From NCBI RefSeq assembly GCF_032854445.1, contig NC_088300.1, positions 9,982,001 through 10,046,000 on the forward strand: DNA of 64,000 nt, given 5' to 3'. The position numbers and the translations under genes are program-made. Below are positions 36,301 through 63,189 of this stretch, piece by piece. This DNA comes from Liolophura sinensis. Its lineage: Eukaryota; Mollusca; Polyplacophora; Chitonida; Chitonidae. Numbering within the stretch: the first letter of the stretch is position 1; every line of letters starts with the position of its first letter. The notes beneath the pieces were generated by a model. It worked only from the letters and a program-made list of their open reading frames with translations. It did not search any database and was not told the origin of the DNA.

Positions 36301-39300
36301 TACGAATGGTAGACGAATGTCGGACATGACACTTATATTTGGTTTATCCCGTGGTTGGATCCCAAGAGTTTGAATTCTCCAGTGGTGGGTCCCAAGTGTT
36401 TGGTTTCTCCATTGGTTGGATATCAAGTAGTTTGGATTCTCCAGTGGTTGGATCCAGATGGTTGGTTTCTCCAGTGCCACATGTCTGACTATTATATCAT
36501 AGACATCGGCATACCTATCTCTGTGAAGACAACATTCAGAGCATGTATACCTAGAAGTGAAGTAACTCTTAAATGTGGAAATCGGAAATTCCATATTCTC
36601 TGCAGGTGTCCAGTAATGCGGACAACGCAATCCGTGATCTTAGTAAAGCGGTAGAACTTGACAAAACCAGTCATGAAGCACTGGAGAGAAGATCTGAGGT
36701 ATGTCTTTTCATCAGATTTTACCTTTTTCTGTGCAGTGATGTTTTCACCAACAGAGGGCATTAACTTTCTTGAAATCTTTAAAACTACATGTAAATTTTG
36801 AGCTTTGGCCTATTTTCCTCAGAGGTGAAAAGCAAAAATATGCTGTTTGAATATTTTGTTTTTGGCACCTAAATCAAGTACTGCTATTTGTGTTCTTCGT
36901 GTATAGTTTCTTTTTAATGAAAATATTCAGTTTCCGACCACAAGATTCAGCCTTAAACTCGAATTTACAAACCGAATATTGGTTATACTTCCCAGGTGAA
37001 TCATTATGTTAATGATGTTTTCCAGGTATATATTGCCATGATTATGTTTACATGATTGTTTCTCTTTGTGTTTCCTAGGTGTATATTGCCATGATTATGT
37101 TTACATGATTGTTTCTCTGTGTGTTTCCTAGGTGTATATTTCCATGATTATGTGTACATGGTTGTTTTTCTGTGTGTTTCCCAGGTGTATATTGCACAGA
37201 ATCGTTACGAGGAGGCTCTGGAGGATCTCTCCATAGCCATGGAACTTCACCCTAGCCAGAAACTATTCTTCCTCAGGGGAACTCTCAATCTCATCTCAGA
37301 GGTGATTCTGTTGGTTCAGGGAAATGAACAGAAATTTGGGGGCTGTAGTTTAAACAGAATAGCTGCGTGTTGTAAATGAGAAAGCTTCTCTGACAAGCAT
37401 GTGTAGGTAGCCTTTCACCAGCTAGGATATGTCCGTAGACACCACAAGCTCCTTATTAAGCCAACCTAGAACAGGGCTTTTCGTCTCCGGCCATAAGTGG
37501 GAAGATCTGTCAGCAACCTGCGGATGGTTGTGGGTTTCCAACGGGCTCTGCCCGGTTTCCTCCCACCATAATGCTGGCTGCCGTTGTATAAGTGAAATAT
37601 TCTTGAGTACGGCGTAAAACACCAATCAAATAAATAAATAAATATATAGAACAGGGCTTAATACGCATTAACTAGAGACATTTTCTTCCCCAGTCAAATT
37701 CTGAAAAACAACATTAAACAAATCTTGGTTTTCAAGGTAAATATACTTCTATATTTTTCAATAGTCATGTTTGAATAAGATGATGATTATATTCATGTTG
37801 GCCATTTCAGCTTTTTGTTCATTTGTATTACAAAAAAGAATCTCTGAAGTATTTTTCACTCTTTCTAAAGGAACTTCTGTCATTTTTGCCAGTCAAATAC
37901 ACCTTATTTACCTAAAGTAAGATCTTTTTTTCTTACATGTTTAATGTTTATTTCTGACAGAACTTTGCTGAAGCTGAAGGAGATTTTAAAAAGAACCTGG
38001 AGAAAGATGGACCATGGTATATTCTGTCTTATTACCATTTAGGCTTAGCTCTGTATTACAGAGGTAAGGTGCGGGTAAGTTGTCCAAGGTGGAAGGCCAT
38101 CAATCATCTTTTATTACAAGATAAAAGTTAAACTTTCAGATGAATATCTGTTTGATTCGGTTTCCAAAATTGAATCTGTCATCCTGTATAACTGATGATT
38201 TTTGAATTATTTATTTATTTATTTTTATTATTTATTTTATTTATTTATTTGATTGGTGTTTTACGCAGTGCCCAAGAATATTTCACTTATATGACGGTGG
38301 CCAGCATTATATCAACAGGAAACCAAGCAGAGCACAGGGGAAACCTAATGGATCTTACGTATGTCAGGAGCGAAAGCCAGCATGGGCTGGACTTGAACTC
38401 ATGACGACTGCATTGGTGAGTCTCCAGGGTGTTCGAATGCTAAGCACAATCTTTTGTTGAATTGTCATAGCACATATATATGTGTACATTTCCGTTTATT
38501 ACAGAATGCCATTGAGGTTTTTAAAGAAATTCTGAAGCTGAAACCAGATCACATTGAGGCATGCACAAGTTTAGCACAAGCCTTCAGGTGGGAGCATGAG
38601 TTAATTAACAATAATGTGGAATATATTAACTTTGAAGATAAAGAAGTAAAAATTGAATGAAAAAAAAAGTAGCTCAAAACCATTATTCATCTTTAAGAGC
38701 TATGTTATATTTCCAATTTGTGGGAATGATTTTTAGAAAACTCAATATGTTTGAAAAAAAAACACCAACGCTTTACCATTTTGTTGTGCTTATGACCAGA
38801 GATATCTCCAACCCCATTCAGGACTGATTGTGTTAACAAGTGGTAACACATCTGTGCCATCCGTACATGTACATCTATATACCAGCCTCATCACCCACTA
38901 TCAAATGCTGGGTAATTATGTACAAGCTAAATTACATTTTGGACAGAAGAATGAAGCCACCTTAACTCAGCATTGCACTTCGCCACAGGAATAGTAACAT
39001 ATGTTTGATCCAACCCTAGTTCTGAATTTGAAATTGCTTTTCTAGCAAGTTTTTTTTTGTATTTCGGACTTAACAAAACAGTTGGACGGAAGAAGGCAGT
39101 CTTACTCAGAAACAAGAAATCAGCTGCTGGGGACGGTTTCTTTTTCTCTGTAGATGTGAAGACATTTGTTTTGATTGCAGGGAGCTGGGGAACCTGCGTG
39201 CGGCTCAAAGTCGATTTAACCAGTCGCTCAGCATGAATCCCAATCACCTTCTCTCGCTACAGCTCCAGGGTACCATGCACTATCATAGCGGGAACCTCCT

Positions 39301-42300
39301 AACTGCTATGCAAGATTTTAAAGTGAGCAGCAGTAACTTTAGTGACCAAATTTACACACTAAGATTTCGTATTTTCTTTGTGTTGATTTTAAATCTACAG
39401 ACAGTATTTTTCAACATTTTTGGAAAAAATATTTACGCTTTTGTACTTCAGTAATTTCATATTGGAGGAGAATATTTGATCATCTTATTGACAGAGATAA
39501 ATTTGAATTGATTTAAACCATTCCATGTTGATAGATTTGCTGATATTGTCCAATTAGGTGATAATTGGCCTTTCATTTGACCAGCATGAACATGTCCTGT
39601 CCTGAGTTGTAGAAGTTGTTATGGTGATGGGTGCTGTTAGATTTGATGATGTCATTTTTTATGCTTGATTTCTCTTAGTTTCTGTTGACAAACTGTAGCA
39701 AGCGAGTTTTAAATATCAAAAACATTAAGCAGCATGCTTGGTGATGTATACAGACGTACCATTCCAGCTACTGTCAGTGATATGTGGATTAAAGTCTAAC
39801 CTGACACAGTTCTTTGTTTGAATTCCTTGAAACAGAAATGTTTATTAGTTGATGCAAACAGCCAGGCCTGCTTGTACATGATGGGACTGTCACAGGTAGC
39901 TGTGGGAAGGTTTTATGATGGAATTAAATCTACAACAAAAGTGAGTACAGTAATGTTTTGTGTGTTATGTGGAAACATTTCTTCTTGCATGGATACTCAA
40001 AGAAAAGCCATACCTTTAGTTTGTAATAATTTGTATTGTTATCATTTTGTGGTCAAGGATGATATTTAATCTGCGACAAGAATTATTGGGAAAATGTTTG
40101 AAAATGGCACAGTTTGTGCCCAGATAAATCTTAAGTGTTTCTACACTGATTTTTGTCATGTAATTGTGATTAACAGAGAACCTTTTAGGACATAGATTTA
40201 TATTAAGTGTTCCTTTCTTATTTTTTGATTTGCAGGTAATGGTTTCCAGATCAGATTTCAAACTTTCTCCTGAATTTTTAAAAGCTCATTATCTGCGAGG
40301 TATGTTGTGTTGTTGCTTGGCAACAAATGGAACAATGTGTTCTACCTCAGGATTTATCTTCACTGGTGTCATGATCAATTCAGTAAAAATCTAAGACATA
40401 ATGGTTTTCTGTGCCTGTTTTACCTTTCGATGAGCATGACCATCACAGTATCGGGGAAATAATCTTCAGTGAAGTGTAAAACATCAGTTAAGATGAAACC
40501 TGAAGATTTTACTAGATCGGGAACAGAAAGAACACTCTACCAGTTTGTTCAGATCTCATGACCTAATGTATTGTGGAAATTTATGAATGATTTATCAGTG
40601 ATACATGTATCTACTGTAGGTAATAAACAAAAAAACAGGGTTGATAATGGAATCTCCTTAGCAGAGGTTATGGTAACTACATGTAGTTCTATCTCAGCAG
40701 GGGTTATGGTAATGACGTAGTTCTGTCTTAGCAGAGATTATTATAATTACATGTGGTTCTGTCTCAGCAGAGGTTATGGTAATGACATTTAGTTCTCTCT
40801 CAGCAGAGGTTATGGTAATGACATGTAGGTATGTCTCAGCAGAGGTTATGGTAATTACATGTAGTTCTGTCTCAGCAGAGGTTATAGTAATGACATGTAG
40901 TTCTGTCTCAGCAGAGGTTATGGTAATTACATGTAGGTCTGTCTCAGCAGAGGTTATGGTAATGACATAGTTCTGTCTCAGCAGAGGTTATGGTCATTAC
41001 ATGTAGTTCTGTCTAAGCAGAGATTATTATAATTACATGTGGTTCTGTCTCAGCAGGGGTTATGGTAATGACGTAGTTCTGTCTTAGCAGAGATTATTAT
41101 AATTACATGTGGTTCTGTCTCAGCAGGGGTTATGGTAATGACATTTAGTTCTGTCTCAGCAGAGGTTATGGTCATTACATGTAGTTCTGTCTTAGCAGAG
41201 ATTATTATAATTACATGTAGTTCTATCTCAGCAGGGGTTATGGTAATGACGTAGTTCTGTCTTAGCAGAGATTATTATAATTACATGTGGTTCTGTCTCA
41301 GCAGGGGTTATGGTAATGACATTTAGTTCTCTCTCAGCAGAGGTTATGATAATGACATGTAGTTCTGTCTTAGCAGAGGTTATGGTCATTACATGTGGTT
41401 CTGTCTCAGCAGAGGTTATGGTAATGACATGTAGGTCTGTCTCAGCAGAGGTTATGATAATTACATGTAGTTCTGTCTCAGCAGAGGTTATAATAATGAC
41501 ATGTAGATCTGTCTCAGCAGAGGTTATGGTCATTACATGTAGTTCTGTCTTAGCAGAGATTATTATAATTACATGTAGTTCTATCTCAGCAGGGGTTATG
41601 GTAATGACGTAGTTCTGTCTTAGCAGAGATTATTATAATTACATGTGGTTCTGTCTCAGCAGGGGTTATGGTAATGACATTTAGTTCTCTCTCAGCAGAG
41701 GTTATGGTAATTACATGTAGTTCTCTCTCAGCAGATGTTATGGTCATTACATGTAGGTCTGTCTCAGCAGAGGTTATAGTAATGACATGTACGTCTGTCT
41801 CAGCAGAGGTTATGGTAATTACATGTAGTTCTGTCTCAGCAGAGGTTATGGTAATTACATGTAGGTCTGTCTCAGCAGAGGTTATGGTAATGACATGTAG
41901 TTCTGTCTGAGCAGAGGTTATGGTAATTACATGTACATGTAGGTCTATCTCATGAGTTATGATAATTACATGTAGTTATTGTAACTACATGTAGTTCATG
42001 TAATATCTTCACATACTTATGTAATATCTACACATACTTACAGAACACTCTCGTTACCTGCATGCCCACCTGGATTCTCCGTTGGCCTCACTACAACCTG
42101 ACAGAGACTACACACCACAGTTCAAAGACAACTGGGTCAGAATGCTGCCATTCACGTTCAAGGTAACTTACGGACAAAGTGCTGAGTTTGAATTTCGATG
42201 GAAGACAGGTTTACATGTGTTGCGCTCAAGTCTGTTCAGTTTTCACTTTAGTGTTTGCTTGTACTACACCATGTCAGGTACATGTTCAAGTTAATGTATT

Positions 42301-45300
42301 ATTGAGTCAAACACAGAATGAATTTTTGGAAATTTGGTAAATGTGAACTTCTTGATATTCACAGTGATAAAAGACTTTCAGAGGTTAAAAGTGAATCAGT
42401 ATGTACAGAGCACATTAGTCCCTGTCAGCATTTACAGTGTGTACATATATAATGTTTCCTCTACCTGCATACTTGTGTTTTGGTGTTATGAGCAGTGATT
42501 TTTTTTTCCGCAGGGCACATATAAAGAGCAGCCAGGATTACAGCCAGATATACGGTTAGTCATAGCGGTACCAATTTTAATAATGCAAAATTTCCTGTTC
42601 ATTTTCAGATTTAATGTCCTTTTCATGAAATTACTTTAGTTACATCACAGTTGTCTCAGCTTCACTGCATTACAGAACCCTGTGCTCTGCTTCACTGCAT
42701 TGCAGAACCTTGTGCCCTGCTTCACTGCATTACAGAACCTTATACTCTGCTTTACTGCATTACAGAACCTTGTGCTCTGCTTCACTGCATTACAGAACCT
42801 CGTGCTCTGGTTCACTGCATTACAGAACCCTGTGCTCTGCTTCACTGCATTATAGAACCTTGTGCTCTGCTTCACTGCATTATAGAACCTTGTGCTTTGC
42901 TTCACTGCTTTATAGAGCCTTGTGCTCTGCTTCACTGCATTACAGAACCTTATACTCTACTTCACTGCATTACAGAACCTTATACTCTTCTTCACTGCAT
43001 TACAGAACCTTGTACTCTGATTGTTTATTTGGATTCATTTTTCATCGTGTGCTGTAATCTTCAGGTTCAGCCAGTTTGCAGTTTAATGTGAAGAAATTTC
43101 ACAAAAAATTGCTCATTTGTTGCTGAGGGAGATATAGGATAAAGAATCAACTTGAAATTCATGTTGAAAGAAGACAACACTAGACCAAATGTATGTATGC
43201 ATTGATAGAATACACCACAGGAAGTTTAAAAAGCACAACAATTTGTTTTTGTGATGAAGCACAACAGACTTCCAGTAGTTCGATGAGCAAAGTTGTGCAC
43301 GTCAAGAGAATCAAAACAACAACAGCATCCAAAGGTTACGACAATGTTTGTTTAGGCTACACATATACTGAACATCGGGTTAAATGGATTTACTAAGTTA
43401 TTTTTAGTGGATGGAACATAATGATTTCATACATCAGACATCAAAGTCGGTAGGGCACGCGTACTGTACCTAACTGAACAGCCAGATAACCTTGGCTACT
43501 ATGGCAGCCGCCAATGTGAACAAACCATGTTGATCATGTTAAACTAATATCATGACTACAGAGTTATTGGGCAAGTTTTATTCAAATTAGAGATGATTTT
43601 GTAAAATGGCCTGGCCGCTGGCTTTGAGCTGCTAGATCTGGATGACTGACATCATTCATTATCTGTGTTTATTAATTCATTTATTTGATTGGTGTTTTAC
43701 GCCGTACTTAAGAATATTTCACCTATGAGATGGCAGCCAGCATTATGATGGGAGGAAACTGGGCAGAAACAACCATCCGCAGGTTGCAGGTAGACCTTCC
43801 CATGTATGGCTGGAGAGAAAGCCAACATGAACTGGACTTGAACTCACAGCGACCCATGGGTGAGAGGCTCCTGGGTCATTGTGCAGCACTGGCGTGCTAA
43901 CCTCCTCAGCCACTCAGGCCTTCATTGTCTGTGCTAGCCTGTATTCCATAGTAAGCTTCTGTGTGGATTCCATAGTAATGTTTACTGTGGATTCCATGGT
44001 AGTGTTGACTGTGGTTTCCATGGTAATGCTCATTGTGGTTTTCATGATAATGTTTACTGTGGATTCCATGGTAATGTTCACTGTGGTTTCCATGGTAATG
44101 TTCACTGTGGATTCCATGATAATGTTCACTGTGGTTTCCATGGTTATGTTCACTGTGGTTTCCATGGTAATGTTCATTGTGGTTTCCATGGTAATGCTCA
44201 TTGTGGTTTCCATGGTAATGCTTATTGTGGTTTCCATGATAATGTTTACTGTGGATTCCATGGTAATGTTTACTGTGGTTTCCATGGTAATGTTCACTGT
44301 GGATTCCATGATAGTGTTCAGTGTGGTTTCCATGGTAAGGTTCTGTGTGGATTCCATGGCAATGTTCTGCGTGGTTTCCATGGTAATGTTCTGTGTGGAT
44401 TCCATGGTAATGTTATGTGTGGATTCTGTGTGAATTCCATGATAATGTTCTGTGTGGATTCCATGGCAATGTTCAGTGTGGATTCCATGGTAATGTTCTG
44501 TGTGGTTTCCATGGTAATGTTCTGTGTGGATTCCATGGTAATGTTATGTGTGGATTCTGTGTGAATTCCATGATAATGTTCTGTGTGGATTCCATGGCAA
44601 TGTTCAGTGTGGGTTCCATGGTAATGTTCAGTGTGGTTTCCATGGTAATGTTCTGTGTGGATTCCATGGTAATGTTCAGTGTGGATTCCATGGCATTGCT
44701 CAGTGATCTCCATGTCTCTTTCAGTGATGTGGTGAAGCTGGGACTGAGTGAGTTTCCCAAGGATCTGCAAACCCTGATCTGTAAGGCTCATCGTGTGGGG
44801 TTATTAGGTCAGGTCAGTGTGGATGGCTTCACCACCAACCGCAGACTCAACTTAGCCATGGGGCTGGCCTCCATACACATAGCTCAGCTCGTAGAGGTAA
44901 GCACAGACATAGCCTAGCTTGTGAAGGTAAGCACACACACGACCCAGCCCATAAAGGTAAGCGTACAAAGCCTAGCTCACGCAGCTAAGTACACAGATAG
45001 CCCATCTCATGGAGGTAAGCCTACACACAGCCCAGCTCATGAAGGTAAGTACACACATAGCCTGGTTTGTGGAGGTAAGTACACATATGGCCCAGCTCAT
45101 GGAGGTAAGTACACACATAGCCTAGCTCATAGAGGTAAGCAGGCACATAGCCTGGCTCATGGAGGTAAGCAGACACATAGCCTAGCTCATGGAGGTAAGC
45201 AGACACATAGCCTAGCTCATGGAGGTAAGTACACACATAGCCCAGCTCGTGGAGGTAAGTACACACATAGCCCAGCTCGTGGAGGTAAGCACACACATAG

Positions 45301-48300
45301 CCTAGCTCATGGAGGTAAGTACACACATAGCCTAGCTCATGGAGGTAAGTACACACATAGCCTAGCTCATGGAAGTAAGTACACACATAGCCTAGCTCAT
45401 GGAGGTAAGCAGACACATAGCCCAGCTCAAGGAGGTAAACGCACACATAGCCCAGCTCATGGAGGTAAGCAGACACATGGCCTGGCTCATGGAGGTAAGC
45501 ACACACATAGCCTAGCTCATGGATGTAAACAGACACATAGCCCAGCTCATGGAGGTAAGCAGACACATGGCCTGGCTCATGGAGGTAAGCAGACACATAG
45601 CCCAGCTCATGGAGGTAAACGCACACATAGTCTGGCTCATGGAGGTAAGTACACACATAGCCCAGCTCGTGGAGGTAAGCAGACACATAGCCTAGCTCAT
45701 GGAGGTAAGCAGACACGTAGCCCAGCTCACGGAGGTAAACAGACACATAGCCTGGCTCATGGAGGTACATGCACACATAGCCTGGCTCATGGAGGTAAGT
45801 ACACACATAGCCCAGCTCGTGGAGGTAAGCAGACACACAGCCTAGCTCATGGAGGTAAGCAGACACATAGCCCAGCTCACGGAGGTAAGCATACACATAG
45901 CCTAGCTCATGGAGGTAAGCAGACACATAGCCCAGCTCCCAGCTCATGGAGGTACAAACACACATAGCCTGGCTCATGGAGGTAAGTACACACAAAGCCC
46001 AGCTCGTGGAGGTAAGCAGACACATAGCCTGGCTCATGGCGGTACATGCACACATAGCCTGGCTCATGGAGGTAAGTACACACATAGCCCAGCTCGTGGA
46101 GGTAAGCAGGCACATAGCCTAGCTCATGGAGGTAAGCAGACACATAGCCCAGCTCGTGGAGGTAAGCAGACACATAGCCCAGCTCACGGAGGTAAGCAGA
46201 CACATAGCCTAGCACATGGAGGTAAGTACACACATAGCCCAGCTCATGGAGGTAAGCAGACACATAGCCCAGCTCATGGAGGTAAGCAGACACATAGCCC
46301 AGCTCATGGAGGTACACACACACATAGCCTGGCTCATGGAGGTAAGTACACACATAGCCCAGCTCGTGGAGGTAAGCAGACACATAGCCTAGCTCAAGGA
46401 GGTAAGCAGACACATAGCCCAGCTCACGGAGGTAAGCAGACACATAGGCTAGCTCGTGGAGGTAAGCATACACATAGCCTGGCTCATGGAGGTAAGTACA
46501 CACATTGCCTGGCTCATGGAGGTAAGCAGACACATAGCCTAGCTCATGGAGGTAAGTACACACATAGCCTAGCTCGTGGAGGTAAGCATACACATAGCCT
46601 GGCTCATGGAGGTAAGTACACACATAGCCTAGCTCATGGAGGTAAGTACACACATAGCCTAGCTCGTGGAGGTAAGCAGACACATAGCCTAGCTCAAGGA
46701 GGTAAGCAGACACATAGCCCAGCTCACGGAGGTAAGCAGACACATAGCCTAGCTCGTGGAGGTAAGTACACACATAGCCCAGCTCGTGGAGGTAAGCAGA
46801 CACATGGCCTAGCTCATGGAGGTAAGCATACACATAGCCTGGCTCATGGAGGTAAGTACACACATTGCCTGGCTCATGGAGGTAAGCAGACACATAGCCT
46901 AGCTCATGGAGGTAAGTACACACATAGCCTAGCTCATGGAGGTAAACGCACACATAGCCTGGCTCATGGAGGTAAGTACACACATAGCCCAGCTCATGGA
47001 GGTAAGCAGACACATAGCCTAGCTCACAGAGGTAAGCATACACATAGCCTGGCTCATGGAGGTAAGTACACACACAGCCTAGCTCACAGAGGTAAGCATA
47101 CACATAGCCTGGCTCATGGAGATAAGCAGACACATAGCCCAGCTCACGGAGGTAAGCATACACATAGCCTGGCTCATGGAGATAAGCAGACACATAGCCC
47201 AGCTCACGGAGGTAAGCATACACATAGCCTGGCTCATGGAGGTAAGCATACACATAGCCTGGCTCATGGAGGTAAGTGCACACATAGCCTGGCTCATGGA
47301 GGTAAGTACACACATAGCCCAGCTCGTGGAGGTAAGCAGACACATAGCCTGGCTCATGGAGATAAGCAGACACATAGCCCAGCTCGTGGAGGTAAGCACA
47401 CACATAGCCTGGCTCATGGAGGTAAGCAGACACATAGCCTAGCTCATGGAGGTAAGCAGACACATAGCCTAGCTCATGGAGGTAAGCAGACACATAGCCT
47501 AGCTCATGGAGGTAAGTACACTCATAGCCTAGCTCATGGAGGTAAGTACACACATAGCCCAGCTCGTGGAGGTAAACGCATACATAGCCTGGCTCATGGA
47601 GGTAAGTACACACTTAGCCCACCTCATGGAGATAGGTCGCACGACAAATAGTGTAATTTGTTTATTTAAATGTTATTCATTTTTAAGATGGATAAAAAAA
47701 CAGAACAGTTTTATCTGTTTTTTTATGGGTTTAAACGATTGAGTGATCATACTTTCATCAAATGATATTTTTTTGTTGTCTTCTGATTTTGTAGCAAAGA
47801 TGGAAAAGTTATAAACAGAACAAAAATGGTGAGTCTTCTATTTCATCTAAGTACATGTAGTGCCCATTAAATTGGGTGGACAGATTTATGTCGTCATATG
47901 GAGGTCGAAAAAACAGATTTGGGTGAACAAGTTCCCTGTAATTTGGTCTGTATATCTGAAAAGAGTAGACACCTTTTTCATAGTTCCTTGATTTCTCAGT
48001 GCATATTTCTGAAATTGATTAAATTTCAACTGCGTAGTAATTCGCTGAACTATTTTGTGACGTAATTAATGAAAAAACAAGTCTAGGAACATCTGACAAA
48101 TTAATTTCCAACTTAACAGTTCGTAATATTGTAAAAAGTTGTTAGGAGAGGTCAAAAATTTATTCTTATTAATATATTCCTGCTCCACCAACATGTAAAA
48201 TTTTGTGATGGAAATGATTTTCCTTTTGCGCTGTGGTTTTACAGGTGAAGATTAAATTAAATGAAGATAAAAAAATGTTTAAGATGCCGGGATTGGCTTT

Positions 48301-51300
48301 TGTCAATATTTTAGATAAGTATGTAGGCTGGCGAGATTTATTCGAGATTGCTGTTGAGTATCGCAGACTGGTTGACCCGGAGCAGCCTGTTTTCTGGTTG
48401 GACAGAATGGGTGATACAGATAATAAGGATTTCAGGGGAGAGATCAGTTTTGTCAGGTAAGAAGGATGTTTCAGATTAGGCAACTGGGCACGGTCCCTTA
48501 CTCAACTGGGACTTTAAACCAGTCCATGAACTAACACTATATGTATGAGTTGATCCAAGTCATTGTTTAAGCCTATGATGTTAATCCTGGTGATTAGCTA
48601 GGACTGTTACCCTCTGACTTTCATCAGACTTTCAGGTGACAGGTTTCAGCAAAGCATACCGTCAGGTTTTAAATGTTTGTATATGTAATCATAGTGACCT
48701 TACAATACTTGTGTCTTTCAGAGGTTCCATGATGAATCTCAAGGTGATGCAATACTTTGATCTGGTTTTTAAACTGGCCAAAACCATGTTGGAACATTAT
48801 ACAGGGTAAGATGAGATATAACAAACAGTAGTTTGTGTTCCTCTACCTTTTGGTCACCTCCCTAGGTAAAGCTGACCACAACTCTGAGTAAAACAAGTAG
48901 AATGTGTCTACATGCATGGAAACACACTCATAAAGCAAGAACAAAACAAGTGTCCTTATTGTTGATGTTTTTAGCAGCCCTACCGAACGGTAATTTTGAT
49001 CTTTTGACCAGATTTCTCAACATGTTCTTGCTTTTCATCAACAATAGGGGAGTTTTGAGTTGGAACTCTTTTGTCATCAAAAGTAAAAACAGTCCAACTT
49101 TGTCATGTGACTGGTGAAAAATGTTAGGCAGCCTTTGTTGACATTAATTTACTGATCTCTGGAAAAGGGTGGTTTCACCCTTTTCCAGAGACACAAATGA
49201 GACCTCTTTCCTGTACGAGCTCATAAACATCCATATTCTCAATCTTCTTTATCCTTCCTTCACTCTAAATTACTTTTTATGATACTTTTTTCAGATGCAC
49301 ATGTTATAGTGAATGTGATCAAAAATGGTTGCCTAACATTTTTGACAGGTCATATAATACAGTTAGACGTTTTCCACCTTCAGCGATAAGAGTTCGAACT
49401 CGAAACTGGAACAGTCATTTCCTTGCACTGTAAATTTATGATTTAATGAATGTGATTAATGTGTGAAACCAGTAATGTGATTAATGTGTGAAACCAGTGA
49501 TGTCATTAATGTGTTAAAGCAATAGTGTAATTAATGTACAGAAACCAGTAATGTGACTATTATGTAAAACCAGTAATGTTATTTATGTCTATAACCAGTA
49601 AACCAATGTTTAAATGTTGCGCAGTAAGCAGTATGTTTGTGTGATAAATGCAGTGATAATAATGATGTCATGATTTACCTTTTCAGTGATGGAGTCATAT
49701 TTTACCCAGGATTAAAAGAGGATATTGATAATGCCAAAACCTGTGAAGATCTGCTGGCCATAGCCAGAGTAAGGCCTCTAGCTATACACATGCTTCCAGT
49801 TTCTAGCAAGCATACATAACTGATTCCAGTGAGAAAGTAATACACTGAAAAAGGTATTAATAAAGTCAAAAGTTAAAGTCACATTTATTGGGCTTCTTTT
49901 GGCACTGCAGATCTTGAAAGTTTTGTCAGACTAGAATACAAGGTAGGGCTTAAGACTGTCTGAAGTTTGCTGTTTCATAAGAATTCGCTAAATAATCCAA
50001 AGAAATTTGTTCTGAAGCTTTGTCTGTAGGAAATTGTGTTCAATTTTTGGAATGTTGTTAAATTCTCATTCTGAAGCCAAACATTTTAGTATGTACAGGT
50101 AGCTGTAATAAAAGTGGGGGCATGTTAGATTGATACATGAACCTGTTTTCTGTATTCTCTCATTTCATTCCTTCTCTGAATTTTTTCAGAAAAGAAAAAT
50201 TAACCCTAATGGATTTTTAGTGTCCACCCAAGTTCCTAGTTTAAAAGAGAAGAGTAATACTCGACTAGATGGAGTGGTTTTAACTCTGACAGAAGATTTG
50301 TAAGTGTGTTGTTAGTCCTGCAAACTCAGCTCTGTTCTAGTCATAATGATCATTATAATCATTTCCTTATCTGAACAAAAAGAGAGCGTTTCTCAGCTTC
50401 CAAATTTAGAGGTCACAACTGTCAATTTTGTGTTTACCACCCTTAACTGTTAGTGCATGTAAAGCTGTTCAGTACAGTACCAAAGAAAAAGAGTAAATCT
50501 ATGATTTTCTTGGACTTTTTAATAGTTCCCTAATACATGCACCTAAATGAGTTAGAAATGAATTAACATACATCAGACTCGCCTGGATAATTTCATTACA
50601 TGTGTATTTCGGACATCTTGTAAACATGTTTTACTTTTGTAATACGATAACTCAGTAATTTAGAAATAAACTGAGGAATATTGACCATTGCACAAATTGC
50701 ATGATGTCGTGGTCAGAAGCTTATTATAACAGACTTGCACCAGATTCTGCTTCACAGATTCATAGTACGCCCTTAATGCTGACGGGCTGGCATGCGGGCA
50801 TGTGGACTATTTCTGTCTGTATGTGTTTTTCTTTTTGTTTTGCAGAAATAACAAGATTGTGCTTTCCATAAACGTGGCAAGTTCAAAAAGCAGGACAAGC
50901 TCATACCATGCTGAAATGGAGCATTTGTTCTTACAGCTCAAAGAGGAGATCAAGAAAAGTGGGGTGAACAAAATATCAGTAAGAAACCCTCAACTATACT
51001 AAACCACTGTTGAAGAGTGAAAAAATAAAATATTAAGTCTGTTAATTGCACAACAACTACAGGTATGTAACCATGCCCATGCTACTTTGTCAGCTCGTTA
51101 GTTTTCCAAACAGAGATTTCAAATAAATTTGATCATATTTCTTTAACCTTTATATCATGCCTGTGTGTAATACAGTGTAGAGTGTTGGCAACATTTCAGG
51201 ATTCATTGTGTCCATTGTGAACACTGTCTTGTCTGTAGTGTACTATTTTTGCATGCCTTTATCACTGTTTCAGGATATGGAGTCCATTGTGGACACTGTC

Positions 51301-54300
51301 TTGTCTGTAGTGTACTACTTGTGCATGCCTTTATCACTGTTTCAGGATATGGAGTCCATGATGAACACTGTCTTGTCTGTGGTGTACTACTTCTGCATGC
51401 CCTTATCACTGTTTCAGGATATGGAGTCCATTGTGAACACTGTCTTGTCTGTAGTGTACTACTTGTGCATGCCTTTATCACTGTTTCAGGATATGGAGTC
51501 CATTGTGGACACTGTCTTGTCTGTAGTGTACTACTTGTGCATGCCTTTATCACTGTTTCAGGATATGGAGTCCATGATGAACACTGTCTTGTCTGTGGTG
51601 TACTACTTCTGCATGCCCTTATCACTGTTTCAGGATATGGAGTCCATTGTGAACACGGTTTTGTCTGTGGTGTACTACTTCTGCATGCCTTTATCACTGT
51701 TTCAGGATATGGAGTCCATTTTGAACACTATCATGTCTGTAGTGTACTACTTCTGCATGCCTTTATCACTGTTTCAGGATATGGAGTCCATTTTGAACAC
51801 TATCTTGTCTGTGGTGTACTACTTCTGCATACCCTTATCACTGTTTCAGGATATGGAGTCCATTGTGAACACTGTCATGTCTGTAGTGTACTACTTCTGC
51901 ATGCCCTTATCACTGTTTCAGGATATGGAGTCCATTGTGAACACTGTCATGTCTGTAGTGTACTACTTCTGCATGCCTTTATCACTGTTTCAGGATATGG
52001 AGTCCATTGTGAACACTGTCATGTCTGTAGTGTACTACTTCTACATGCCTTTATCACTGTTTCAGGATATGGAGTCCATTGTGAACACTGTCATGTCTGT
52101 AGTGTACTACTTCTGCATGCCTTTATCACTGTTTCAGGATATGGAGTTCATGGTGAACACTGTCTTGTCTGTGGTGTACTACTTCTGCATGCCTTGATCA
52201 CTGTTTCAGGATATGGAGTCCATTGTGAACACTGTCATGTCTGTAGTGTACTACTTCTGCATACCTTTATCACTGTTTCAGGATATGGAGTCCATTGTGA
52301 ACACTGTCTTGTCTGTGGCGTACTACTTCTACATGCCTTTATCACTGTTTCAGGATATGGAGTCCATTGTGAACACTGTCATGTCTGTAGTGTACTACTT
52401 CTGCATACCTTTATCACTGTTTCAGGATATGGAGTCCATTGTGAACACTGTCTTGTCTGTGGTATACTACTTCTACATGCCCTTATCACTGTTTCAGGAT
52501 ATGGAGTCCATGGTGAACACTGTCTTGTCTGTAGTGTACTACTTGTGCATGCCTTTATCACTGTTTCAGGATATGGAGTCCATTGTGAACACTGTCATGT
52601 CTGTAGTGTACTACTTCTACATGCCTTTATCACTGTTTCAGGATATGGAGTCCATTGTGAACACTGTCTTGTCTATGGTGTAGTACTTCTGCATGCCCTT
52701 ATCACTGTTTCAGGATATGGAGTCCATTGTGAACACTGTCTTGTCTGTAGTGTAGTACTTCTGCATGCCTTTATCACTGTTTCAGGATATGGAGTCCATT
52801 GTGAACACTGTCATGTCTGTAGTGTACTACTTCTACATGCCTTTATCACTGTTTCAGGATATGGAGTCCATTGTGAACACTGTCTTGTCTGTGGTGTACT
52901 ACTTCTGCATGCCTTTATCACTGTTTCAGGATATGGAGTCCATTGTGAACGCTGTCTTGTCTGTAGTGTAGTACTTCTGCATGCCTTTATCACTGTTTCA
53001 GGATATGGAGTCCATTGTGAACACTGTCATGTCTGTAGTGTACTACTTCTACATGCCTTTATCACTGTTTCAGGATATGGAGTCCATTGTGAACACTGTC
53101 ATGTCTGTAGTGTACTACTTCTGCATGCCCTTATCACTGTTTCAGGATATGGAGTCCATTGTGAACACTGTCATGTCTGTGGTATACTACTTCTACACGC
53201 CCTTATCACTGTTTCAGGATATGGAGTCCATTGTGAACACTGTTTTGTCTATGGTGTACTACTTCTGCATGCCTTTATCACTGTTTCAGGATATGGAGTC
53301 CATGGTGAACACTGTTTTGTCTATGGTGTACTACTTCTACAATCTGATGCCTTTATCACGGGGTTCAAGGTTAGAGTTCTTTTTTATGAACTTTACATTG
53401 AGTTTGGTCAGTAAAGAGACAAACCCTTTGCTAAATTACGTTAACACATACATGTAATAATGGTATTTGAGGGTCCTCCTAAATACTGGCTCGCTCACCT
53501 AGTGTGACTCTTGCTTCAGCTGAACTGTCCAGCTGGCCAGGGATGTTGCCAACTTCACAATGCCTCTGCTTGGTTCCCCCACTCTTGCATTGTATCACTG
53601 ATGGGAGTTGTTGAAGTACTGGGTAAATAATAATATTTGGTGGTAATTTGTGAGCATGATATGAAAAAGTTTTTGAATGGAACTGCTAGCCTTGTATGAG
53701 CAATCTGTTACTATCAGATGTAGCAGGTTTGACCGGGGCTGTTTGTGTTGTAGTGTGGTGGCGTATTCTGTGGCCTTGGGCCTCATTATGTCCCTCGGTA
53801 GGGAAGTGACAGGGAAAATACCCACAGGCAAGGTAAGCTATGGTAGTAATATTTAACCTGGATATGATGGATTGTTGGATTTAATTTGCATGGTATTCAG
53901 TACTTAACAACCTGGATGTGGTGGATTGTTGGATTTAATTTGCATGGTATTCAGTACTTAACAACTTGGATGAGATGGATTGTTGGATTTAATTTGCATA
54001 TATACAGTACTTAACAACCTGGATATGATGGATTGTTGGATTTAATTTGCATGGTATTCAGTACTTAGTTACCTGGATATGATGGATTGTTGAATTTAAT
54101 ATGCATGGTATTCAGTACTTAACAACCTGGATGTGATGGATTGTTGGATTTAATTTGCATGATATTCAGTACTTAACAACCTGGATATGATGGATTGTTG
54201 GATTTAATTTGCATGGTATTCAGTACTTAGTTACCTGGATATGATGGATTGTTGAATTTAATATGCATGGTATTCAGTACGTAACAGCCTGGATATGATG

Positions 54301-56597
54301 GATTGTTGGATTTAATTTGCATGGTATTCAGTACTTAATAACCTGGATATGATGGATTTTTGGATTTAATTTGCATGGTATTCAGTACTTAACAACCTGG
54401 ATATGATGGATTGTTGGATTTAATTTGCATGGTATTCAGTACTTAGTTACCTGGATATGATGGATTGTTGAATTTAATATGCATGATATTCAGTACGTAA
54501 CAACCTGGATATGATGGATTGTTGGATTTAATTTGCATGGTATTCAGTACTTAACAACCTGGATATGATGGATTGTTGGATTTAATTTGCATGGTATTCA
54601 GTACTTAACAACCTGGATATGATGGATTTTTGGATTTAATTTGCATGGTATTCAGTACTTAACAACCTGGATATGATGGATTTTTGGATTTAATTTGCAT
54701 GGTATTCAGTACTTAGTTACCTGGATATGATGGATTGTTGGATTTAATTTGCATGGTATTCAGTACTTAACAACCTGGATATGATGGATTGTTGGATTTA
54801 ATTTGCATGGTATTCAGTACTTAACAACCTGGATATGATGGATTGTTGGATTTAATTTCCATGGTATTCAGTACTTAACAACCTGGATATGATGGATTGT
54901 TGGATTTAATTTACATGGTATTCAGTACGTAACAACCTGGATATGATGGATTGTTGGATTTAATTTGCATGGTATTCAGTACTTAACAACCTGGATATGA
55001 TGGATTGCTTTATTTAATTTGCATGCTATTCAGTACTTAACAACCTGGATATGATGGATTGTTGGATTTAATTTGCATGGTAGTTACCTGGATATGATGG
55101 ATTGTTGAATTGAATATGCATGGTATTCAGTACTTAACAACCTGGATATGATGGATTGTTGAATTTAATTTGCATGGTATTCAGTACTTAACAACCTGGA
55201 TATGATGGATTGTTGAATTTAATTTGCATGCTATTCAGTACTTAACAACCTGGATATGGTGGATTGTTGGATTTAATTTGCATGGTATTCATTACTTAGC
55301 TACCTAGATATGATGGATTGTTGGATTTAATTTGCATGCTATTCAGTACTTAACAACCTGGATATGGTGGATTGTTGGATTTAATTTGCATGGTATTCAG
55401 TACTTAACAGTTTGTGCATTTAGAATCCGTCAAATGAAATACTGATGGGATTGAACTGTAGGGCATGTTTTATAATGATTTGTACATTGTAATTGTAGAC
55501 AATTACAGATTGTTTTTTCAGACAAGGGACTTCAAACATTACCTAGCTATAAACCCTAGTGGATTATAGATTTTTCATGCTTCTTGATCTGCTACATGCA
55601 GCTACACACTTTTTTCATCAGAATTTGCTGCACAAATTAGTGGCAAGCCTGATGTCATATCTTTAATGTGATGTTGACCTTCCATCTGTTTGATTTGGTG
55701 ATATAATCATGGTGTTTGGTACTTTGCAGCTGGTTGATCTGGAGGCCATGTTGTCAGGAGCACCAGATGCGTTTATCCTCGTCACAAAACAGTGGATGAA
55801 TATAAAAAAGTGAGTTTGAGAAGGATTGTGCATTACTGTCAGAGTAATGTACATCCAATGCATCACATTTTACAGAAATCATGTCATATATAATGCCATT
55901 AATTGTTGTCAGTATGTTCTATTATTACATGTTAAAGTCCTGTTAAATCCAACAAATTTTATGCACAATGCAAAGCATGTTGCGCCATGTGTTATTGCAC
56001 ATTCAGGATAATAGTTTGCTACTTCATAACAGAACATCACATACATTGTAGCTCTTCATAGAAAGTGTATAATAATAGTAATTATTGTAACAATATATAC
56101 ATCTTATATGTTACTGAAACTTTTCTTCGTTTACTCTTTGTCACCAGCATTTAAGATTTCATCAGTATCTTTAGGCATACTCTAATTCTTCAGACTTTTG
56201 GGACAGATATCAGTAGTGTTGAAAGTAAAATATTACATTTCTCTACCAGCCTCTTGGAAAAGTAAAGATATGAGTATGTTAAATGGTCTAACCCTGTGAG
56301 AAAAAAGAAACTCAATATTCCTGCTACATTTACATATATTGGCTAAAAATGAGTAGACCAGGTGTCTCAAAAATTAGAAGAAATAAGGTAGTGCAGCTAA
56401 ACACCCCCAACCCCCAGATTTATTCAGTCATATATGGAGTAGAGGTCGTAAAAATGTTTTGAAATAAGCAGTGAGCTGGCTTTGTTATCGGTTTCAGGAA
56501 TGGCACGACGTTAAGCACATTGCCAAAAGTGTGGGAGGCATTTCCCACTGTGAGAACTGTCATCGAGGCCTTAAATCTCAGCATGGAATCCTGCTGA
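33379..56597 (+). CDS. TTC13: Tetratricopeptide repeat protein 13, complete, 25 exons
   Basis: Orthologue of animal TTC13, whose molecular function is not established. Exons: 33379-33646, 34083-34183, 34426-34501, 34766-34836, 35618-35683, 36606-36698, 37185-37301, 37961-38074, 38505-38587, 39181-39322, 39836-39940, 40236-40299, 42044-42162, 42514-42554, 44725-44896, 47795-47828, 48315-48456, 48722-48805, 49687-49768, 50190-50299, 50846-50978, 53290-53369, 53754-53832, 55730-55809, 56498-56597. Phases join throughout and predict 851 residues, near the roughly 860 I recall for human. Residues 1-22 look like a signal peptide (LTLQLSFLLF core) followed by a cysteine-containing stretch, so the protein probably enters the secretory path. 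TPR helices occupy about 150-425 (AVGIVMLNAGLSDEAIHEF, AFYARGVAYARKG, and so on). The C-terminal half has the diagnostic WRDLFEIAVEYRR, DPEQPVFWLDRM, VYYFYNLMPLSRGSS and GREVTGKIPTGK. The exon 16/17 junction is the least certain; see findings. Introns are unusually rich in tandem repeats. Confidence 0.95.
34863..35565. repeat. 42-bp minisatellite in TTC13 intron 4
   Basis: About 13 imperfect units (CAGAAATTGGTTAGAGCC, then TATAGGCCTGAATGTAAAGT). It starts about 25 bp after the exon 4 donor and each unit carries a GTAAAG resembling that donor's GTAAAC. A SINE interrupts it at 34911-35031. Confidence 0.88.
34911..35031 (+). mobile_element. SINE A, truncated, inside a minisatellite
   Basis: 3' half ending TCAAATAAATAAATAAATA, inserted in the 42-bp array of TTC13 intron 4; array-like sequence lies on both sides, with a possible short flanking repeat AAATTGAT. 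Confidence 0.88.
36005..36480. repeat. Degenerate minisatellite in TTC13 intron 5
   Basis: Irregular units built from GGTTGGTTTCTCCAGTG and GGATCCCAAG-like blocks, period about 17-35 bp. Highly diverged. Confidence 0.6.
37026..37184 (+). repeat. 53-bp tandem repeat made from the exon 7 splice acceptor
   Basis: Three complete copies precede the true exon. Each begins like exon 7 (GTGTATATTGC) and ends TGTGTTTCCTAG or TTTCCCAG. Exon-like starts lie at 37026, 37079 and 37132, with the real one at 37185: exact 53-bp spacing. The period is not a multiple of three and each decoy soon meets a stop, so decoy use would disrupt the protein. Confidence 0.92.
37480..37646 (+). mobile_element. SINE A, 5'-truncated, perfect 13-bp target-site duplication
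   Basis: Flanked by TAGAACAGGGCTT at 37467-37479 and 37647-37659. About 167 bp long and lacking the tRNA head. In TTC13 intron 7. Confidence 0.95.
38204..38446 (-). mobile_element. SINE A, old nearly full-length copy
   Basis: Extended TTTATTT tail on the plus strand, then the family core with substitutions and a small rearrangement. In TTC13 intron 8. Confidence 0.85.
40660..41960. repeat. 36-bp minisatellite in TTC13 intron 12
   Basis: About 36 units (GTCTCAGCAGAGGTTATGGT plus AATGACATGTAGTTCT) with variants that recur in blocks, such as the TTATTATAATTACATGTGG type. It ends about 85 bp before exon 13. Stop-free in some frames on both strands, giving false open frames. Confidence 0.93.
42650..43020. 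repeat. 30-bp minisatellite in TTC13 intron 14
   Basis: Twelve units (TTCACTGCATTACAGAACCT, then TGTGCTCTGC), beginning about 95 bp after exon 14. Each unit contains ATTACAG, which resembles a splice acceptor, but I see no exon from which it derives. Confidence 0.93.
43668..43920 (-). mobile_element. SINE A, full length with target-site duplication
   Basis: On the minus strand it begins GGCCTGAGTGGCTGAGGAGG, a tRNA-like head with A box. It is flanked by TTCATTATCTGTG (43655-43667) and TTCATTGTCTGTG (43921-43933), a 13-bp duplication with one mismatch. In TTC13 intron 14, immediately before the 24-bp array. Confidence 0.93.
43960..44710. repeat. 24-bp minisatellite abutting exon 15
   Basis: About 30 units (TTCCATGGTAATGTTCTGTG) with a larger internal duplication (44410-44480 matches 44530-44600). 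It ends about 15 bp before the exon 15 acceptor, leaving little unique sequence for the branch point and polypyrimidine tract. Confidence 0.93.
44873..47635 (+). repeat. 30-bp minisatellite made from the exon 15 splice donor, about 91 copies
   Basis: Each unit (ACACATAGCCTAGCTCATGG followed by AGGTAAGCAG) copies the last 24 bases of exon 15 (ACACATAGCTCAGCTCGTAG, then AG) plus the donor GTAAGC. The array thus has about 91 consensus 5' splice sites after the true one at 44896. In the coding frame the first unit carries TAG at 44915-44917, so use of any decoy would truncate the protein. Other units are CAG-type and open. Stop-free off-frames give false open frames of 580 (plus) and 568 (minus) codons. 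Confidence 0.97.
49440..49610. repeat. Degenerate 25-bp tandem repeat in TTC13 intron 18
   Basis: About six units of the form TGTGATTAATGTGTGAAACC with AGTA spacers, ending about 75 bp before exon 19. Confidence 0.8.
51200..53289 (+). repeat. 72-bp minisatellite: tandem copies of TTC13 exon 22 with its acceptor
   Basis: Each unit is a CTGTTTCAG acceptor, GATATGGAGTCCATTGTGAA and the rest of exon 22 to about TACTTCTGCATGCCTTTATC, then CACTG leading into the next acceptor. Acceptor-exon boundaries run from 51274 to 53290 at exactly 72-bp spacing (28 intervals, 29 acceptors), with a degenerate one at 51200. Only the last copy has the family sequence FYNLMPLSRGS and the donor. In the exon frame, stops occur at 52195, 52681, 52753 and 52969; after that the frame is open to the real exon. 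Confidence 0.96.
53851..55410. repeat. 54-bp minisatellite in TTC13 intron 23
   Basis: About 29 units (AACCTGGATATGATGGATTG, then TTGGATTTAATTTGCATGG and TATTCAGTACTTAAC), beginning about 18 bp after the exon 23 donor. Variants with TTAGTTACCTGG recur in blocks, showing multi-unit duplication. Confidence 0.94.
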
Positions 56598-58270: not shown

Positions 58271-58959
58271 TCAGAGATTTCAATATCATTATCTCAGGCT
58301 AATTGTGATTGGTCAGAGATGTCATTATCATCATTTCAGGCCGAATGTGATTGGCCAATGAAGGCTGGGGTTACTGATGTTTTCATTATGGACCCTGTGG
58401 ATGTCTTCTCACATTGTGTCCCCTTTCAGCCTGAAGTGACTCTATCATTTAATTCAGGTGTAATAATTTGGTACCTTTTCTGAATCATTTTGGTCTGTTT
58501 TATAAAGTTTTAATTTTGAAAAAAAAAACCAAAAAATTCTTTTATGGTAAAAGAATTTTTTATATTTGGTTGCAAGTTGCATCCATTCATGCCAATTCTG
58601 AAATGAAAAAAAATTGAAATGGTATTTCCATTTTATCTGTTAAAAAGTTCCCAAATTGTGAAAGTATTCAGCCTACTGACTGTTCTTTAAATACGCTCAG
58701 CTGTACAGGATCACTTGGTCAAAAGCCACTGATATTTCTTATACCTCAAATGCTTTGTTGTCTAATTGTCAAGCCCTCTAAATGTCAAAGACTTTAAAGG
58801 TTATCTGGTGTTAAGTTTACGTTATAAAACTAAAGAGACTGGATTGTTACCTCTTTGTGTGATTTTGGTTACTATTGATGACAATGGTTGACTTTCTAGT
58901 TAACTCTCATGAGTAGATTTATTGCATCAGATATGACATTACTTCAGACCTTATTCTGG

Positions 58960-61900
58960 TGATGATACAGTGATATCATGCAGTAATGCTACCTCACTGT
59001 AGTATTATAGCTAAGACACCCTCGTGACAACTCACACAGTCACCTTATTCTGGTCATGTTACAGTCATATCCTGTAGTAGTGTTACCTCACTGTAGTATT
59101 ATAGCTAAGACACTCTCCGTGACAACTCGCCCAGTCACCTTATTCTGATCATGGTACACCGATATCCTGTAGTAGTATTACCTCACTGTAGCATTATAAC
59201 TAAGACACCCTCCATGACATCTCACCCAGTCACCTTATTCTGGTGATGGTACAGTGATATCCTGCAGTAGTGTTACCTCACCTTAGCATTATAGCTAAGA
59301 CACCCTCCATGACAACTCACCCAGTCACCTTGCTCTGGTGATAGTACGGTGATATCCTGCAGTAGTGTTAGCTCACCTTAGCATTACAGCTAAGACACCC
59401 TTCATGACATCCCACCCAGTCACCTTATTCTGGTGATGGTACAGTGATATCCTGTAGTACTGTTACCTCACCCTAGCATTATAGCTAAGACATCCTCCAT
59501 GACAACTCACCTATCACCTAATTCTGGTCATGTCAGAGTGATATCCTGTGTTACCTCACCCTAGCATTATAGCTAAGACACCCTACATGACATCCCACCC
59601 AGTCACCTTATTCTGGTGATGGTACAGTGATATCCTGTAGTACTGTTACCTCACCCTAGCATTACAGCTAAGACACACTTCATGACATCCCACCCAGTCA
59701 CCTTATTCTGGTGATGGTACAGTGATATTCTGTAGTAGTGTTACCTCACTGCAGCATTATAGCTAAGACACCCTCCGTGAGAACCCACCCAGTCACCTTA
59801 TTCTGGTCATGTTACAGTGATACCCTGTAGTAGTGTTACCTCACTGTAGCATTATAGTTAAGACACCCTCCATGACAATTCACCCAGTCACCTTATTCTG
59901 GTGATGGTACAGTGATATCCTGTAGTGCTGTTACCTCACTGTAGCATTATAGCTAAGACACCCTCCATGACAGTTCACCAGTCACCTTATTCTGGCGATG
60001 GTACAGTGATATCCTGTAGTAGTGTTACCTCACCCTAGCATTATAGCTAAGACACCCTACATGACATCCCACCCAGTCACCTTATTCTGGTGATGTTACA
60101 GCGATATCCTGTAGTACTGTTACCCCACCCTAGCATTATAGCTAAGACACCCTACATGACATCCCACCCAGTCACCTTATTCTGGTGATGGTACAGTGAT
60201 ATCCTGTAGTAGTGTACCTCACTGCAGCATTATAGCTAAGACACCCTACATGACATCCCACCCAGTCACCTTATTCTGGTGATGGTACAGTGATATCCTG
60301 TAGTAGTGTACCTCACTGTAGCATTATAGCTAAGACACCCTCCATGACATCCCGCCCAGTCACCTTATTCTGGTGATGGTACAGTGATATTCTGTAGTAG
60401 TGTACCTCACTGCAGCATTTTAGCTAAAACACCCTCCATGACAACTCACCCAGTCACCTTATTCTGATCATGGTACAGTGATATCCTGTAGTAGTGTTAC
60501 CTTACTGTAGCATTATAGCTAAGACACCCTACATGACATCCCACCCAGCCACCTTAGTCTGGTGATGTTACAGTGATATTCTGTAGTAGTGTACCTCACT
60601 GTAGCATTATAGCTAAGACACCCTTTATGACACCTCGCACAGTCACCTTATTCTGGTCATGTTACAGTGATATCCTGTAGTAGTGGTACATCACTTAAGC
60701 ATTATAGCTAAGACACTGGACATGACAACTCACCCAGTCACCTTGCTCTGGTGATAGTACGGTGATATCCTGCAGTAGTGTTAGCTCACCTTAGCATTAC
60801 AGCTAAGACACCCTTCATGACATCCCACCCAGTCACCTTATTCTGGTGATGGTACAGTGATATCCTGTAGTACTGTTACCTCACCCTAGCATTATAGCTA
60901 AGACATCCTCCATGACAACTCACCTATCACCTAATTCTGGTCATGTCAGAGTGATATCCTGTGTTACCTCACCCTAGCATTATAGCTAAGACACCCTACA
61001 TGACATCCCACCCAGTCACCTTATTCTGGTGATGGTACAGTGATATCCTGTAGTACTGTTACCTCACCCTAGCATTACAGCTAAGACACACTTCATGACA
61101 TCCCACCCAGTCACCTTATTCTGGTGATGGTACAGTGATATTCTGTAGTAGTGTTACCTCACTGCAGCATTATAGCTAAGACACCCTCCGTGAGAACCCA
61201 CCCAGTCACCTTATTCTGGTCATGTTACAGTGATACCCTGTAGTAGTGTTACCTCACTGTAGCATTATAGTTAAGACACCCTCCATGACAATTCACCCAG
61301 TCACCTTATTCTGGTGATGGTACAGTGATATCCTGTAGTGCTGTTACCTCACTGTAGCATTATAGCTAAGACACCCTCCATGACAGTTCACCAGTCACCT
61401 TATTCTGGCGATGGTACAGTGATATCCTGTAGTAGTGTTACCTCACCCTAGCATTATAGCTAAGACACCCTACATGACATCCCACCCAGTCACCTTATTC
61501 TGGTGATGTTACAGCGATATCCTGTAGTACTGTTACCCCACCCTAGCATTATAGCTAAGACACCCTACATGACATCCCACCCAGTCACCTTATTCTGGTG
61601 ATGGTACAGTGATATCCTGTAGTAGTGTACCTCACTGCAGCATAATAGCTAAGACACCCTACATGACATCCCACCCAGTCACCTTATTCTGGTGATGGTA
61701 CAGTGATATCCTGTAGTAGTGTACCTCACTGTAGCATTATAGCTAAGACACCCTCCATGACATCCCGCCCAGTCACCTTATTCTGGTGATGGTACAGTGA
61801 TATTCTGTAGTAGTGTACCTCACTGCAGCATTTTAGCTAAAACACCCTCCATGACAACTCACCCAGTCACCTTATTCTGATCATGGTACAGTGATATCCT

Positions 61901-62200
61901 GTAGTAGTGTTACCTTACTGTAGCATTATAGCTAAGACACCCTACATGACATCCCACCCAGCCACCTTAGTCTGGTGATGTTACAGTGATATTCTGTAGT
62001 AGTGTACCTCACTGCAGCATTATAGCTAAGACACCCTTTATGACACCTCGCACAGTCACCTTATTCTGGTCATGTTACAGTGATATCCTGTAGTAGTGGT
62101 ACATCACTTAAGCATTATAGCTAAGACACTGGACATGACACGTTACCCAGTCACTTTATTCTGCCCTTGTTACAGTGATGTCCTATAGTAGTGCTGTCTT
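58960..62200. repeat. About 95-bp satellite with a 1413-bp internal duplication
   Basis: About 34 units (CACCTTATTCTGGTGATGGT, CAGTGATATCCTGTAGTAG, CATTATAGCTAAGACACCC). The block starting near 59310 and ending near 60720 is repeated from about 60723 to 62135 at a constant offset of 1413 bp (checked at 59331/60744 and 60711/62124), with only a few differences noticed, for example near 60600/62013 and 60232/61645. Confidence 0.94.
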
Positions 62201-62833
62201 GCTATAGCATTAGAGCGAAAACACCAGGCATGAGATCTCACCCAGTCGCCTTATATTTTGACAACAAAAAAGCAGTCCTTGTGCGTTTGTCCAGATTCAG
62301 AGCAGATATAGTTTGGGGAACAGTATAAATCTAGTCACAGACGTGGCACTTATCCCAAACTCATGACTTCAGCAGGCAGAAATGCCAACACACGTAAACA
62401 GTATGCCACAACATGATTCTGTAGAAAACGCCATTGTTCATTCAGACAAGTTCCACAGCCGAGTGCAGGAATGTTGTGACTGAGCTAGGATGATAACATC
62501 TGAAGATTAAGGAAAGGTACTGTTACTGAACAATCGTTTAAAACGTCTTCCGAAAAAAATGAATGATTCGCGACTATCACTTCGAACTGGACTGGTATTA
62601 GATTCAAATGATCGCTGTCAATTCAATGGTTGAGTGATAACCGCGGTCAGTGAGGCCTGACAACTGACAATTTGACGTCCATGGCACTGCCTTCCCAGCT
62701 GGGTTCCTCATCAACCTGACGACTTGAGTGAATACCTAAATTTGTGACCAGAATGCAGCTTCCAAGTCATTTGTAGGGTTGTCTTCTTATGGCAGTCAGA
62801 ATGATTAGAGTTTTCATACTTCGGCATGTAAGT

Positions 62834-62970
62834 TGATTTATTTATGTGATTGGTGTTTTACGCCGTACTCGAGAATATTTCACCTATATGACGGCGGCCA
62901 GCATTATGGTGGGAGGAAACCAGGCAGAGCCCGGGGAAAACCCACGACCATCCTCAGGTTGCTGACAGAC
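62834..62970 (-). mobile_element. SINE A, 5'-truncated, perfect 13-bp target-site duplication
   Basis: Flanked by TCGGCATGTAAGT at 62821-62833 and 62971-62983. The core is close to the family consensus, so the insertion is fairly young. Confidence 0.94.
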
Positions 62971-63189
62971 TCGGCATGTAAGTCCCAAATTCTTGAGAAT
63001 ATAGGTTCCAAGGCAGACCTGGGTATATAACCACCTAAACGCTGTTGAAACACGGTATAGAGCTGAAGTTACGCCCCGGTTTTCACTGATCAGGTACGGT
63101 GTCGTACTGACCTCTCCGGCAGTAATTTTGCTTACACGGTGACTCCTTGAAAGAAACTGGATGCAATTATCTTTGCCCATCATAGTCAT

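Follow-up and report, generated by a model that had tools for sequence, protein, structure and literature searches.

The tandem array that leads into exon 22 of a TTC13-like gene in the window analysed here (the whole stretch of 64,000 nucleotides of chiton DNA) is very probably a mirage, that is, a by-product of minisatellite growth that is tolerated because splicing would take the exon-proximal site. TRF placed the array at 51194–53338 on the forward strand, from within intron 21 to a point inside exon 22, with a period of 72 bp and 29.8 copies (94% matches, 0% indels). The acceptor motif CTGTTTCAG/GATATG (slash, splice junction) recurred without a mismatch at 29 sites (51265–53295), each 72 bp apart; 28 of these are decoys (51265–53223, forward strand) and the remaining one is the true acceptor of exon 22, so that the exact spacing given in the original prediction was recovered. 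When up to three mismatches were allowed, the window held 31 motif matches compared with a mean of 3.08 in 100 shuffles, none of which reached 31. The array starts with a diverged outermost copy (51191–51264, forward strand, by sequence reading), the acceptor of which, at 51200, reads ACATTTCAG/GATTC.

In each unit the last intron bases (CTGTTTCAG) are followed by exon bases from GATATG through TTTATCAC. Relative to exon 22 it comprises the first 70 of the 80 exon bases minus a 6-base gap (exon AATCTG is missing), together with those last intron bases. The claim that the array repeats a coding exon with its splice acceptor was thus right as to its material, exon 22 plus acceptor, but the copies are not full exons. 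Since the unit joins the exon end to an acceptor, the bases just upstream of the acceptors, including the true one, are exon-derived. Over 23 nt, 17 of the 28 decoys were identical to the true acceptor, and in this respect the earlier wording of a decoy ladder is apt. Eleven pairs of copies were identical, and the distant ones, which include 1/4, 2/5, 9/26 and 11/19/22/25, seem to point to block exchange between units. Exon 22 itself differed from copy 28 at 1 of 49 nt and from copies 1–27 at 3–7 of 49. A variant-free stretch of 23 nt surrounds the acceptor in the 28 copies (51265–53295; probability 0.003 for such a run).

The TTC13-like gene (33382–56597, forward strand) has 25 exons and 850 codons with the frame intact, and its product matched TPR families (Pfam). 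The exon map was built by splicing the window so as to respect AG/GT borders and the reading frame and to follow resemblance to a human TTC13 bait, on which the name TTC13 rests. Exon 21 (50846–50978, forward strand) ends in phase 0 with the donor gtaaga after 50978, and the true exon 22 (53290–53369, forward strand, 80 nt), which encodes DMESMVNTVLSMVYYFYNLMPLSRGS, forms the exon-side end of the array. A missing microexon lying between exons 15 and 17, suspected from a phase clash, was rejected, as an exon 17 start at 48315 and an exon 8 end at 38074 gave the intact 850-codon frame. No TTC13 retrocopy recording splicing was seen in the assembly, where all five matches were the TTC13 locus itself.

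Boundary arrays were found at 3 of the 25 exons of this gene. TRF and junction analysis identified a donor array of 30-bp units (44872–47634, forward strand; GAG/GTAAGC) with 92 junctions, of which 87 keep GT; the donor of exon 15 (44725–44896, forward strand) is the first, true junction of the 92. Exon 7 opens at 37185 at the true site of an acceptor array of 53-bp units with four sites (37019–37195, forward strand, from TRF and the exon map). About a dozen more long minisatellites were reported by TRF in the window, for example at 10258–11277 (27 bp), 40660–41935 (36 bp), 53855–55409 (54 bp) and 58948–62254 (95 bp). The window also contains a dispersed element, possibly of SINE type, that recurs on both strands in introns and intergenic DNA (e.g. 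around 34920–35010, 37480–37640, 43680–43890 and 62820–63000), as well as minus-strand exon-like frames at 23554–23793 and 3294–3530 that by eye resemble peroxiredoxin and methylenetetrahydrofolate dehydrogenase.

Beyond this gene, 60 loci were sampled that surround exons matching dynein (PF08393) or myosin (PF00063) (154.5 kb in 38 blocks); the loci were chosen from the best-scoring matches, and the sample is not random. The two domain searches listed 86 and 81 matches, of which 105 were judged to lie within the loci, 102 of them with at least 100 nt of flank. Ten exon rows had a near or overlapping array, and six were counted by eye as boundary arrays, that is, at 6 of 102 sampled exons: acceptor arrays at C2:5378501 (32 bp, about 22 copies) and C1:95580461 (AG kept in two of four decoy junctions examined), and donor arrays at C12:684214 (31 bp, 18 copies), C12:686729 (66 bp, about 8 copies), C2:23749053 (58 bp, about 2 copies) and C8:10565028. 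The two C12 arrays lie a few kb apart and so probably belong to one gene. Four candidates were not counted, namely C1:95581759 (acceptor-like repeat without exon sequence), C4:1247172 (10 nt off the exon), C9:13725794 (AT-rich, two copies) and C1:44394631 (within the exon). In a separate part of C8 (37880506–37891931), eight matches to a haemocyanin domain, of a molluscan family, stand in a row within 12 kb.

In all three TTC13 arrays and all six sampled arrays the true site is the one at the exon side, a position that the encoded protein demands. Array ends were not enriched at exon edges in the TTC13-like gene, with 3 of 28 in exons and about 3.1 expected (11.0% coding), nor in the sample, with 9 of 92 in exons and 12.9 expected from the matched exons alone. 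Nothing here suggests that the arrays seek exon edges, and their origin appears blind.

Acceptors were scored with a small matrix built from the other 23 acceptors of the TTC13-like gene. On this scale 19 of the 28 decoy acceptors equalled the true site, 9 scored lower and none scored higher. Among the donors of the exon 15 array, 76 of 91 decoys scored equal to or above the true one. The decoys are mostly as strong as the true sites. The two decoys nearest exon 22 scored 7.22 and 5.94 against 9.86 for the true acceptor (small matrix), and local strength may help site choice there.

For the mirage reading, we propose that a founding duplication by chance took in most of exon 22 along with the 3' end of intron 21, and that growth to about 30 units followed, probably via unequal exchange or slippage. 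As the array reaches out of the exon towards the intron, the outermost unit on the exon side is still the true exon, and the protein remains the original one. With units carrying equally good-looking acceptors, local site strength is unlikely to set the correct choice, and, most decoys being no weaker, the choice is likely guided by position. The most likely rule would be exon definition, the downstream donor being paired with whichever acceptor lies closest to it. Upstream copies would then be ordinary intron, drifting without protein-level constraint, and splicing would proceed normally despite the array.

The original prediction had raised, beside a decoy ladder, a different role, in which the four open copies serve as alternative acceptors and yield functional TTC13 length variants, and this we regard as very unlikely. 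Frame reading on the forward strand bore out the observations behind it: acceptors 25–28 (53002, 53074, 53146 and 53218) are in phase 0 and stop-free into exon 22 at 53290, so that the last four copies (53002–53289) would add 96, 72, 48 or 24 residues, and two of these four acceptors score as high as the true site. The older copies do meet a stop, as had been stated, since in-frame stops in copies 13 (52195–52197), 20 (52681–52683), 21 (52753–52755) and 24 (TAG, 52969–52971), all on the forward strand, close the frame for acceptors 1–24, the one in copy 24 alone being sufficient. Four open copies at the 3' end are, however, unremarkable and expected by chance (0.52, given stops in 4 of 28 copies). 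Nor are silent changes favoured among the copies: the unique variants of the 28 copies comprised 14 missense, 2 stop and 5 silent changes where 14.4, 0.7 and 5.9 were expected (16 protein-changing and 5 silent, against 15.1 and 5.9), and thus look neutral in the coding frame, with no trace of protein-level constraint. Any insertion would also sit next to a stretch with good similarity to human TTC13 (63% over 30 residues of the bait sequence). Equivalent arrays occur in the same gene and in others, some with units of 53, 31, 32 and 58 bp, which are not multiples of three; as the TRF period is divisible by three in just five of the nine boundary arrays (72, 30, 66 and the composite periods 327 and 267), the divisibility of 72 bp is not telling. 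Lancelet arrays offer something to each side (PMC3087553, PMC3902484): one PGBD5 model placed a 57-residue exon inside the repeats, although it had no transcript support and was omitted by the authors, and the arrays are reported not to seem to disturb regular splicing.

A ladder of poison splicing or buffering, in which leakage to acceptors 1–24 gives stop-containing transcripts that are degraded and array length tunes TTC13 output, is to our judgement quite unlikely. It would agree with the fact that 24 of the 28 decoys lead to a stop, and with the 15 acceptor columns that are invariant in the 28 copies, a result that hints at constraint, and to that extent speaks against the mirage reading, at a probability of about 0.004 to 0.005 for randomly placed variants, in an array picked for this very motif. 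In four of six boundary arrays, however, there were windows that varied less than the splice core. This test covered six of the nine arrays (C1:95580461, C2:23749053 and C8:10565028 were left out), with rows of more than 15% gaps removed, which left exon 7 with two units. The count of windows with strictly less variation than the splice core was 0 of 72 at exon 22, 10 of 30 at the exon 15 donor and 41 of 53 at exon 7 in the TTC13-like gene, and 4 of 32 at C2:5378501, 17 of 31 at C12:684214 and 0 of 66 at C12:686729 in the sample (ties exist); the core was thus least variable, with ties, only at exon 22 and C12:686729. AG or GT was kept in 164 of 170 rows of the six arrays, true copies included, and the donor columns of the exon 15 array gave a probability of 0.088. 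General selection on splice signals was accordingly dropped and is not claimed, and the invariance at exon 22 is recorded as unexplained. It also weighs against a tuned ladder that array ends land in exons roughly as often as blind placement would put them there. More broadly, we consider it unlikely that decoys are used measurably and that array length, which is expected to vary between individuals and perhaps cells, sets the share of premature stops or of insertions in 24-residue steps; if this were true, chitons would possess, in the boundary minisatellites of several percent of their exons, a layer of splice control that is genome-wide, heritable and unstable. Least probable of all, in our estimate, is an assembly artefact or an inflated copy number. 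Tandem arrays can be mis-sized, and the mitochondrial contig of the same assembly is a head-to-tail concatemer; against this, TRF found no indels, the copies carry distinct variants, and all 15 DNA matches in the assembly lie at the TTC13 locus, a single one. The published HiFi reads average 8,347 bp at 14x and so exceed the 2.1-kb array (PMC11068029). The mitochondrial contig (C99) repeats the mitochondrial genome every 15,537 bp and shows a long simple repeat near 12,300–12,800.

How the spliceosome chooses among several equal sites is an old question, and the TTC13-like gene provides a naturally occurring set of about 30 acceptors and 92 donor junctions whose local sequences largely agree. 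Public RNA-seq from five tissues is listed for this chiton, Liolophura japonica (BioProject PRJNA973839; PMC11068029), which allows a direct count of how often the exon-proximal site is chosen; a genome also exists for another chiton, Acanthopleura granulata. The rate in the sample further suggests that introns of this chiton often grow through minisatellites at exon edges. Boundary arrays in molluscs, or a frequency for them, were not found in the literature searched, a weak negative in that subscription papers lay largely outside it.

The term mirage was introduced for lancelet minisatellites that duplicate an exon-intron boundary, and the two reports (PMC3087553, PMC3902484) describe globin RT-PCR and Adh3 data as suggesting undisturbed regular splicing, state that aberrant mRNAs do not arise from the Adh and troponin C repeats, and propose boundary repeats as a source of new introns. 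Judged from its DNA, the chiton array fits this class, already known and named in lancelets. Its minisatellite-sized tandem units lie in an intron contiguous with the exon (51194–53338, ending inside exon 22), and the unit holds part of the exon together with a splice signal (CTGTTTCAG plus exon bases to TTTATCAC). The splice dinucleotide is kept in 28 of 28 decoy acceptors and in 87 of 92 donor junctions of the sister array. The inner copies appear to evolve in concert and the boundary copy stands apart from copies 1–27 (3–7 of 49 nt), but by only one difference from copy 28. The lancelet mirages and the chiton arrays are likewise similar in having a unit across the boundary, beside the true exon, with AG or GT retained, in including both acceptor-side and donor-side cases, and in a boundary copy distinct from the inner ones (PMC3087553, PMC3902484). 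Unit lengths overlap those of the chiton, being 10–72 bp in lancelet Adh3, 60 and 108 bp in PGBD5 and 150–160 bp in globin, whereas the copy numbers differ: the globin and PGBD5 cases described have 2–7 units, and the single chiton gene has 28 decoys on the acceptor side and 91 decoy junctions on the donor side.

Internal tandem repeats in human paralogues also alter gene structure from within the gene, as here, but they belong to segmental-duplication paralogues (PMC2812944). The host differs as well, a chiton here and a lancelet for the named mirages. A human minisatellite, that of the interferon-inducible gene 6-16 (IFI6), carries multiple splice donors in 12-bp units arranged in tandem at an exon edge; the resemblance to the chiton lies in donor-bearing tandem units at the exon edge, while the units are short, on the donor side and in human. 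Lancelets may thus not be the only animals with boundary arrays of this broad type.
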